A stretch of DNA of 64,000 nt from Tetradesmus obliquus (lineage: Eukaryota; Chlorophyta; Chlorophyceae; Sphaeropleales; Scenedesmaceae): NCBI GenBank assembly GCA_030272155.1, contig CP126194.1:4579501-4643500 (forward strand), written 5' to 3'. Positions 36,701 to 46,922 of the stretch are shown piece by piece. Every line of letters starts with the position of its first letter. Positions within the stretch are counted from its first letter, which is position 1. The notes under the pieces are model-generated. The model was not told the origin of the DNA. It saw nothing but the letters and a program-made list of their open reading frames with translations, and made no database searches. Both the position numbers and the translations under genes were made by a program.

Positions 36701-39700
36701 GTTCGACACCGAGATCGCCCGCATGGCTGAGCGCCTGCTGATCAAGGGCCGCCCCATCGACTACCACACAGGCGTCATCGCCACCAAGGTCACGCCAGGC
36801 GTGCCAGGTGCGCTGCTACTGCTGCTGCTGCTGCTGCCAGGGCTTGCCGCTGCTAGATAGTAGTCCTAGTTGTCGTTTGAACTGGCAATGGCCCTTCGTG
36901 CATGGGGTCCAGACGATGATTGCTTGGCAGCTTAGCACTCAGTGCAGCTGCAACAGGATCCTGAAACACCAAACCACATGTCATGAGTGCTTACACGTGC
37001 GCTGCTGCTGCTGCTGCTGCAGGCGTGAAGCCGGTGGAGATTGAGCTGACTGACTTCAAGACCAAGAAGGTGGTGGACACCCTGGAGGTGGACGCCTGCA
37101 TGGTGGCCACAGGCCGCGCACCATACACCAACGGTGAGGCAGCCAGCCAGCAGATAGAGGGGTTGCATGGTGTGAACAGGCGACCACGTTGCAACGATCA
37201 CCCAAAAACACAGAAAACTGCAGGAAGCTCAGCCAGGCAGCTGCAGGGCAGGTTGGCAGGCAGGGCATGTGCCTAATCACGATGCAGTGTGCAGAGATGT
37301 GGCAAGGATGTTGATCGCAGCTGGTCATGTCGGTGGGGGCGTCACTGTTGCCTGCTCTGTCAGAGTCATTACATAACAGCATTGACAATTCATTTTGTAC
37401 CCGGCAGCGCCAATCGTCTGCTGGAAGCACTGAGTGACTTGCCGCCACACTCACATCTGGCTGTCGCTCCTCTGCCTGTCGCCCTCCCTGCCGTTGCTGC
37501 TGCCCCTGCCCTCCCCTGCCCTCCCTCCGCAGGCCTGAACCTGGGCTCCATCGGTGTGGAGACCGACAGGCGCGGCTTTGTGCCCGTGAGCGAGAAGATG
37601 GAGGTGCTGGGCAGTGACGGCAAGGTGGTGCCCAACGTGTACTGCATCGGTGACGCCAACGGCAAATACATGCTGGCGCACGCAGCCAGCGCGCAGGTGA
37701 GCATGGGTGGAGTGTGCGAACGTCTGTTGTATATGCATCCGTGCACGACAGACAGTCAGCCAGAGTGGGTGCGGCGGACTGCGGGGTAGTAGCTGTGCAC
37801 GCACAGCATTGCAATAGCGCTGGCAATGGCCACTGCGTACGCTCCTGCGTGCCAGCGTAGCTAGGCTTCACAAGGCGGTCGTGTGCAATCGGGCCGTCCA
37901 GTACCTGCTGTGCCCTCTGCCTATCACTACCGTCACGAAAGGCCGAACTCAACAGTAAATGCACATGCACGCCCCTTCAAGCAGTGCTGGACCAAGAGAG
38001 CCCTGCCCATAGTCTCCTGGTGCTCCGAGTGCTACTGTTGACCGCCTGCCCTCTTGTGCACCTTGCTGCTGCTGCTGCTGCTGCGCTGCAGGGCATCAGC
38101 GCGGTGGAGAACATGCTGGGCCGGCCCAACGTGCTCAACCACCTGTCCATCCCCGCGGCGTGCTTCACGCACCCCGAGGTGTCGTTTGTGGGCGTGACTC
38201 AGGAGAAGGCCGAAGAGATGGCCAAGGAGCAGGGCTTCCCGCTGGGCGTGGCCAAGACCAGCTTCAAGGCCAACTCCAAGGTGTGTGTGTGTGTGTGTGT
38301 GTGTGTGTGTGTGTGTGTGTGTGTGTGTGTGTGTGTGTGTGTGTGTGTGTGTGTGTGTGTGTGTGTGTGTGTGTGTGTGTGTGTGTGTGTGTGTGTGTGT
38401 GTGTGTGTGTGTGTGTGTGTGTGTGTGTGTGTGTGTGTGTGTGTGTGTGTGTGTGTGTGTGTGTGTGTGTGTGTGTGTGTGTGTGTGTGTGTGTGTGTGT
38501 GTGTGTGTGTGTGTGTGTGTGTGTGTGTGTGTGTGTGTGTGTGTGTGTGTGTGTGTGTGTGTGTGTGTGTGTGTGTGTGTGTGTGTGTGTGTGTGTGTGT
38601 GTGTGTGTGTGTGTGTGTGTGTGTGTGTGTGTGTGTGTGTGTGTGTGTGTGTGTGTGTGTGTGTGTGTGTGTGTGTGTGTGTGTGTGTGTGTGTGTGTGT
38701 GTGTGTGTGTGTGTGTGTGTGTGTGTGTGTGTGTGTGTGTGTGTGTGTGTGTGTGTGTGTGTGTGTGTGTGTGTGTGTGTGTGTGTGTGTGTGTGTGTGT
38801 GTGTGTGTGTGTGTGTGTGTGTGTGTGTGTGTGTGTGTGTGTGTGTGTGTGTGTGTGTGTGTGTGTGTGTGTGTGTGTGTGTGTGTGTGTGTGTGTGTGT
38901 GTGTGTGTGTGTGTGTGTGTGTGTGTGTGTGTGTGTGTGTGTGTGTGTGTGTGTGTGTGTGTGTGTGTGTGTGTGTGTGTGTGTGTGTGTGTGTGTGTGT
39001 GTGTGTGTGTGTGTGTGTGTGTGTGTGTGTGTGTGTGTGTGTGTGTGTGTGTGTGTGTGTGTGTGTGTGTGTGTGTGTGTGTGTGTGTGTGTGTGTGTGT
39101 GTGTGTGTGTGTGTGTGTGTGTGTGTGTGTGTGTGTGTGTGTGTGTGTGTGTGTGTGTGTGTGTGTGTGTGTGTGTGTGTGTGTGTGTGTGTGTGTGTGT
39201 GTGTGTGTGTGTGTGTGTGTGTGTGTGTGTGTGTGTGTGTGTGTGTGTGTGTGTGTGTGTGTGTGTGTGTGTGTGTGTGTGTGTGTGTGTGTGTGTGTGT
39301 GTGTGTGTGTGTGTGTGTGTGTGTGTGTGTGTGTGTGTGTGTGTGTGTGTGTGTGTGTGTGTGTGTGTGTGTGTGTGTGTGTGTGTGTGTGTGTGTGTGT
39401 GTGTGTGTGTGTGTGTGTGTGTGTGTGTGTGTGTGTGTGTGTGTGTGTGTGTGTGTGTGTGTGTGTGTGTGTGTGTGTGTGTGTGTGTGTGTGTGTGTGT
39501 GTGTGTGTGTGTGTGTGTGTGTGTGTGTGTGTGTGTGTGTGTGTGTGTGTGTGTGTGTGTGTGTGTGTGTGTGTGTGTGTGTGTGTGTGTGTGTGTGTGT
39601 GTGTGTGTGTGTGTGTGTGTGTGTGTGTGTGTGTGTGTGTGTGTGTGTGTGTGTGTGTGTGTGTGTGTGTGTGTGTGTGTGTGTGTGTGTGTGTGTGTGT

Positions 39701-45700: not shown

Positions 45701-46922
45701 GTGTGTGTGTGTGTGTGTGTGTGTGTGTGTGTGTGTGTGTGTGTGTGTGTGTGTGTGTGTGTGTGTGTGTGTGTGTGTGTGTGTGTGTGTGTGTGTGTGT
45801 GTGTGTGTGTGTGTGTGTGTGTGTGTGTGTGTGTGTGTGTGTGTGTGTGTGTGTGTGTGTGTGTGTGTGTGTGTGTGTGTGTGTGTGTGTGTGTGTGTGT
45901 GTGTGTGTGTGTGTGTGTGTGTGTGTGTGTGTGTGTGTGTGTGTGTGTGTGTGTGTGTGTGTGTGTGTGTGTGTGTGTGTGTGTGTGTGTGTGTGTGTGT
46001 GTGTGTGTGTGTGTGTGTGTGTGTGTGTGTGTGTGTGTGTGTGTGTGTGTGTGTGTGTGTGTGTGTGTGTGTGTGTGTGTGTGTGTGTGTGTGACGGCGC
46101 ATGCAGGGGCATGCATGCACACAGGCATGTGCGGACGCATAGGCACCACGTGCGGGCCACAGACACGGTGCACATGCCAAGAGCAGCTTGGAAGGCGAGA
46201 AGATCCCGTAATCAGACATTAGAAGAGACTGTACATAGTATACTAGGGGCATGAACGTATGCATAGGCATGCAGGAGATTGCCACAGGCATGGCGCACTG
46301 CCCCGTCACAACATCCAGTACCTCACATGCTGTGTTTTTTTGTGTGCTGCGGCTTGCTTTCAGGCGCTGGCCGAGAAGGAGGGCGAGGGCATGGCTAAGA
46401 TGCTGTACCGCAAGGACACCGGTGAGATCCTGGGCGTGCACATCATCGGGCTGCACGCAGCAGACCTCATCCACGAGGCGTCCAACGCCATCGCCACCAA
46501 GCAGACCGTGCAGGTGCGGCTGCGTGTGTTGACGGGTTCTGTTTCATTTGGGGACATACAAGCGGGCTCGCTTGTGTACTTGGGGGGGGCAGCATATCAG
46601 TTTGGTTTGCACGTGCAGTGGAGTGATTGCAGCCAAAGTCAAATCAAAACTTGCGTGGTAATATGTAGCGCACAAGTGAAGCCAACAACTTGTGCAGCAT
46701 GCCGTATGCTCAGCTGTTTGTGCTTTTGCTCGATGCAGCTCACTCTGTATGCCGCTATTCATTGGCTCTTGCTTGCAGGACATCAAGTTTGCTGTGCACG
46801 CGCACCCCACGCTGTCAGAGGTGCTGGATGAGCTCATCAAGTCGGCACATGTGAACCCACCCAGCAGCAGCAGCAACAGCAGCGCAGCCAAGGCCGGTGC
46901 AAAGCAGCCAGTGGCAGCTTGA
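33784..46922 (+). CDS. Plastid dihydrolipoamide dehydrogenase (E3 of plastid pyruvate dehydrogenase complex)
   Basis: Re-oxidises dihydrolipoamide with FAD and NAD+. Twelve exons: 33784-33962, 34218-34353, 34801-34947, 35122-35226, 35604-35742, 36098-36252, 36678-36807, 37023-37133, 37533-37696, 38092-38280, 46364-46513, 46779-46922 (TGA); 582 residues and all phases close. Residues 1 to about 75 are a Ser/Arg/Gln-rich chloroplast transit peptide ([20 protein letters not shown]). Then come the FAD motif [14 protein letters not shown], redox disulfide CVNRGC (Cys121, Cys126), NAD site [15 protein letters not shown], second FAD motif [18 protein letters not shown] and catalytic HAHPTLSE. The sequence matches plant plastid LPD rather than mitochondrial E3. 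A Ser/Ala tail follows. Intron 10 (38281-46363, 8083 bp) is mostly a (GT)n tract; exons 10 and 11 (FKANSK / [12 protein letters not shown]) are contiguous in the family. Confidence 0.95.
36320..36374 (+). repeat. Copy of the end of exon 6 and its donor inside intron 6 (dihydrolipoamide dehydrogenase)
   Basis: 55 bp copy, one mismatch, of 36204-36258: the sequence coding [16 protein letters not shown] followed by the donor GTGCGC. Offset 116 bp, not a multiple of three, so use of the second donor would shift the frame. Confidence 0.95.
38281..46093 (+). repeat. Giant (GT)n microsatellite, 7813 bp, inside intron 10 of dihydrolipoamide dehydrogenase
   Basis: The tract reads GT continuously from the splice donor at 38281 to the GTG before ACGGCG at 46093, about 3906 units, with no interruption that I noticed. 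Open frames of about 2700 codons (Val-Cys and Thr-His repeats) across it on both strands are artefacts of the dinucleotide. The remaining 270 bp of the intron are unique sequence ending TTTCAG. Alternating purine-pyrimidine GT/AC DNA readily adopts Z-form, and the transcript would be a UG-repeat RNA. Confidence 0.97.

Follow-up and report, generated by a model that had tools for sequence, protein, structure and literature searches.

How does the gene of a plastid metabolic enzyme come to hold an intron made up almost entirely of a single dinucleotide? The question was raised by a stretch of 64,000 nucleotides (the window) from contig CP126194.1 of Tetradesmus obliquus, in which a GT repeat of several kilobases fills most of intron 10 of the plastid dihydrolipoyl dehydrogenase gene. 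In our judgement the repeat is probably a recent, runaway GT microsatellite, seeded by a splice donor in a tolerant gene.

The GT tract of intron 10 and its host gene

The features of the locus, all on the forward (+) strand of the window, are as follows.

33784..46922, +, plastid dihydrolipoyl dehydrogenase gene, ATG to TGA; 12 coding exons, 582 amino acids
38092..38280, +, exon 10; phase 0 at its end, ending ANSK
38278..38286, +, 5' splice site AAG/GTGTGT; first and top-scoring donor of the tract
38281..46363, +, intron 10; 8083 bp, GT...AG, all but 270 bp being GT tract
38281..46093, +, pure (GT)n tract; 7813 bp, no interruption
46094..46363, +, non-repeat remainder of intron 10; 270 bp, ending TTGCTTTCAG
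46364..46513, +, exon 11; begins ALAEKEGEG

Within the tract G and T alternated strictly, with zero departures, through 3906 full GT units and one G, and the repeat began on the first base past exon 10. It is a microsatellite in the sense of a tandem repeat with a unit of 1-6 bases, and since the longest other GT/AC run in the window was 10 bp, its length is far beyond chance. A and C, and with them AG, were absent from the tract, as were stop codons, and the reading frame from exon 10 stayed open for 2797 codons' worth of sequence. The earlier note had reported about 3906 GT units without a noticed interruption, and this was confirmed over all 7813 bases; the gene model likewise bore out its placement of the tract exactly at the donor, its numbering of the intron as the tenth, and the 270 bp of unique sequence ahead of a TTTCAG acceptor. 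This remainder, whose TTTCAG stands just ahead of exon 11, is expected to contain the branch point. It held 22 AGs counting the acceptor (21 before it), with the nearest upstream AG at -47. A structured remainder was rejected, as the 270 bp gave no unusual RNA fold compared with shuffled sequences (z = 0.30).

All introns of the gene were of the GT-AG type and all 11 donors began with GTG; the ten introns other than intron 10 measured 174-447 bp each. The best NCBIfam model for the product was TIGR01350 (E = 2.4e-119; 399.1 bits, under its cut-off of 408.8), and the best protein match was the annotated T. obliquus protein OEZ85_006903. A single residue near the C terminus differed (N in the window, T in OEZ85_006903), indicating that the window and that record represent different alleles or strains. 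Exons 10 and 11 were joined at the same place in OEZ85_006903, which was compared as a protein and thus bears on the join of the two exons, not on the length of the intron there. The junction SK/AL was also unbroken in all eight homologues compared, among 120 listed; one homologue, P0003, presumably comes from the transcriptome of a relative, judging by the format of its accession. Since SK and AL are contiguous in homologues, the two flanks must belong together, however long the tract between them truly is. With a GT start, an AG end, phase 0 exons and contiguity of these exons in homologues, intron 10 has the sequence features of a spliceosomal GT-AG intron.

When the genome was searched with the protein, 12 of 18 matches were the exons of this gene at one place, and the other six were weak (E = 4.5e-8 or worse) and lay on two other contigs. 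Only one copy of the gene seems to be present in the assembly. Judged from its sequence it looks intact and is apparently working. The 12-exon model and the match to OEZ85_006903 support the identification as plastid dihydrolipoamide dehydrogenase made in the earlier note, whose description of the flanking exons as intact, in phase and contiguous in the family agrees with the phase 0 boundary and the eight homologues.

Two further repeats were observed in the window. The end of exon 6 together with its donor (36204-36258) was copied at 36320-36374 in intron 6 (55 bp, 98% identical, 116 bp downstream); the second donor, if used, would shift the frame. Direct repeats that overlap one another occupied 4679-5641; their matches spanned about 300-760 bp and were 68-76% alike.

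Donors were scored with a matrix built from the other ten donors of the gene. The first donor of the tract scored 5.81 bits, compared with -4.25 bits for an internal GT, which weakens the earlier suggestion that the tract presents thousands of cryptic donors. The other ten scored 7.7-13.95 bits. The lower score of the intron 10 donor would suggest some cost, although the matrix favours the ten donors from which it was built. Because no other donor in the tract comes near the first GT, the repeat lacks AG, any A for a branch point and any stop codon, and the acceptor region in the last 270 bp is untouched, the tract can be expected to be tolerated, and for the same reasons the intron is probably spliced out in one piece. 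These signals would predict that it is processed like any other long intron, perhaps at a lower speed. We infer that the tract is probably neutral or mildly costly. No evidence of a function for it was found.

Long GT tracts across the assembly

The whole assembly (17 contigs, 104.66 Mb) was surveyed for exact matches to 100 bp of GT or TG preceded by a base that breaks the repeat, using six patterns that covered the possible starts on both strands. The census gave 57 places, and merging the pieces of three arrays left 48 loci, each with a pure GT run of 100 bp or more. Run lengths ranged from 100 to 8461 bp, with 16 of the 48 loci at or above 500 bp, eight at or above 1000 bp and three at or above 5000 bp. 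The intron 10 tract was the second longest, between a run of 8461 bp on contig 10, whose length was obtained from two adjoining pieces put together, and one of 5498 bp on contig 6, which reached 5828 bp when three one-base slips were included. The 706 bp of the tract at L058 (positions 1-894) is a lower bound, as it ended directly at Ns. The view of the intron 10 tract as an isolated oddity was therefore rejected. It is a member of a genome-wide, heavy-tailed class of GT tracts, a fact that the earlier note missed and that could not be shown from a single window.

Of the two laws compared, a Pareto distribution fitted the lengths better than an exponential one (log-likelihood -345.5 vs -368.2), a result to be expected where the growth of a long tract scales with its length. 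The Pareto alpha was 0.76 from 100 bp and 0.93 for the 25 loci of at least 300 bp. Counted as 38-mer positions on both strands, GT repeats occupied 21,841 positions (about 3,900 of them in the intron 10 tract) and GA repeats three, GA being the sole other dinucleotide searched. Pure GCA/TGC runs of at least 93 bp were common (3,583 positions on both strands of the whole genome), indicating that GT is not the sole growing repeat in this genome; the longest complete GCA run among the matches listed was 177 bp. Two loci, L022 (contig 8 near 3960952-3962670) and L009 (contig 1 near 2420505-2421727), were arrays of many GT runs with interruptions, and are perhaps older than the pure tracts.

In the titles and abstract openings searched, such tracts were not described for this alga. 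The genome of strain UTEX 3031 is reported to be phased diploid and telomere-to-telomere (Biondi et al. 2024, Algal Research 79:103431). An assembly of 17 contigs and 104.66 Mb would suit one haplotype.

Three of the 48 tracts began exactly at a donor supported by homology. Besides dihydrolipoyl dehydrogenase, these were a guanylate kinase gene (167 bp tract; spliced peptide matching PF00625, E = 2.1e-38) and an RWP-RK gene (340 bp tract; match to PF02042, E = 2.4e-13). A fourth tract of at least 100 bp preceded by AG (AAG), L026 (516 bp), had no open coding frame ahead of it. Two tracts instead lay close to acceptors. At L048 (search match at contig 7, 2257379-2257479, reverse strand) a 971 bp GT tract stopped 8 bp short of a PHO4-type transporter exon (PF01384, E = 9.8e-18); if this acceptor is used, the branch point would lie upstream of the tract or within the last 8 bases. 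At L033 a 237 bp tract stopped 11 bp before an acceptor, which was judged by reading frame alone. Because longer flanks were examined for the window and 15 of the 47 other loci, these counts are lower bounds. Only the intron 10 tract, one of the eight of at least 1 kb, was shown to lie in a gene, and a codon model found little coding sequence near the other seven; the model was crude and uneven in its results and was used for leads only. Four peptides, two from L011 and one each from L033 and L050, gave no Pfam match at 0.01.

With assumed donor densities, random placement predicts 0.02-0.1 of 48 tracts at donors, which the three observed exceed. When seeding was taken into account, the picture was different: 9 of 226 GTGTG seeds in the window followed MAG, predicting 1.9 of 48 (P of at least three, 0.30). 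The observed number is consistent with this seed null, and an enrichment at donors beyond seeding was not shown. Among tract starts of at least 32 bp that were preceded by G, AG stood before 12 of 37 entries (P = 0.24) and before 12 of 29 once two clusters were collapsed (P = 0.05), with a share of 0.26 expected in both cases. The AG share is thus raised weakly, and is borderline at best. The same pattern read backwards gave 0 and 0, which is not a matched control.

Exon-like sequence was also seen beside some of these tracts. In the RWP-RK intron past the GT tract (L020, 2089-2785), three stretches resembled the next exon region (92% over 66 bp, 87% over 55 bp and 78% over 83 bp), and at L048 the 33 bp ahead of the tract were 91% like the PHO4 exon behind it. 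Decayed exon copies in introns may recur in this genome.

Origin of the tract and alternative explanations

The tract would have started from a GTGTG-type donor at intron 10, a type of short seed that is frequent in this genome, and would have reached about 3900 units in the assembled allele by large or multiplicative steps. Selection on exon 10 would have pinned the left edge, leaving growth free into the intron but not into the exon, and the old intron body would have been displaced to the right. The expansion appears to be recent, with no substitution yet inside the tract. If substitutions are even and consensus building removed none, an intact 7813 bp corresponds to fewer than about 0.0004 changes per site since the present form arose (5% level). 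With zero substitutions, the present length is probably young and likely to vary between cells or strains.

A wider claim would be that an active, strongly GT-biased runaway process uses splice sites as seeds and that the spliceosome harmlessly removes thousands of UG units. We regard this as somewhat unlikely, and lowered our estimate slightly because only one of the eight tracts of at least 1 kb was shown to lie in an intron.

The length itself might be an artefact: base calling, polishing or assembly could have stretched a GT microsatellite that truly exists at this donor but measures tens to hundreds of bases. The perfect purity of all 7.8 kb would fit this, such repeats are difficult, three tracts above 5 kb occur in one assembly, and the L058 tract runs directly into Ns, although these might stand for withheld sequence instead of an assembly gap. 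However, both flanks of the intron 10 tract are consecutive exons of one gene, which makes a chimeric join of two loci unlikely. Tract lengths spread continuously in a heavy tail between 100 bp and 8.5 kb with no isolated outlier, and GA lacks a comparable tail. Some tracts, including that on contig 6, retain interruptions, which shows that consensus building left at least some of these in place, and assemblers would be expected to shorten pure repeats more often than to lengthen them. Taken together, these points make an inflated length unlikely.

It is highly improbable that the tract is a functional intronic UG element, in which the repeat or its UG-repeat RNA regulates splicing or output of the enzyme gene. 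The tract does sit at a splice site, and UG-rich sequence 5' of the CFTR exon 9 acceptor is reported to alter splicing via TDP-43 (PMC12171016). Elements of the CFTR type, however, lie just upstream of the acceptor, whereas the intron 10 tract starts at the donor and is separated from the acceptor by 270 bp, and very different tract lengths at unrelated places fit a mutational process better. Import by a mobile element, or growth at the end of one, is more improbable still. In its favour, two other tracts, C2 and C6b, have 3' flanks that start alike with CGTAATGC, and L052 adjoins a frame with a zinc knuckle (PF00098), which looks retroelement-like. On the other hand, in comparisons of flanks up to 1.4 kb, no sequence adjoining the intron 10 tract was common to another tract's flank, and the sole match to another locus was 84 bp at 89%, about 1 kb upstream in intron 8. 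With no adjoining element sequence shared within these flanks, a mobile-element origin was rejected.

Significance and comparison with known repeats

Should the length be real, a pure dinucleotide can reach kilobases in a metabolic gene that is apparently single copy and still leave it unbroken, and GT donors can serve as seeds for such growth. The 48 loci, from 100 bp to 8.5 kb, offer a series for asking how length affects splicing, chromatin and stability. GT repeats can form Z-DNA, and poly-UG RNA can fold. If thousands of UG units were indeed removed harmlessly, the gene would emit UG-repeat RNA of kilobase length, which would provide a natural system for studying poly-UG structure and protein titration. 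As the genome is reported to be phased diploid, two alleles could be compared in T. obliquus.

Usual (GT/CA)n microsatellites have tens of units. Like the donor-seeded tract proposed here, they are pure tandem dinucleotides that occur in introns and are expected to be unstable; the differences are the thousands of units and the exact anchoring on a splice donor. Dinucleotide repeats are reported to be abundant genome-wide in cod and haddock, as they are here, but the figures given are densities and not kilobase tract lengths (PMC5894186). The UG tract of CFTR exon 9 also lies beside a splice site, but at an acceptor and with TDP-43 involved, whereas the intron 10 tract is at a donor. The tracts at L048 and L033, 8 and 11 bp before acceptors, come nearer to CFTR in position.

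In the Bur-0 accession of Arabidopsis, an intronic GAA/TTC expansion in IIL1 is reported to lower expression at 27 C, with 24-nt small RNAs (PMC12177298). In both cases a repeat has expanded within an intron of a green-lineage gene for a metabolic enzyme. The IIL1 repeat differs in being a trinucleotide with an effect on expression. Human expansions of the SCA10 type are likewise intronic repeats of kilobase size; the ATTCT repeat in ATXN10 intron 9 is reported to reach up to 4,500 units, or about 22.5 kb (PMC9528567). The SCA10 repeat is a heterogeneous pentanucleotide in a disease allele, whereas the algal tract is a pure dinucleotide in a reference genome, located at a splice donor and accompanied by dozens of further loci with this repeat.
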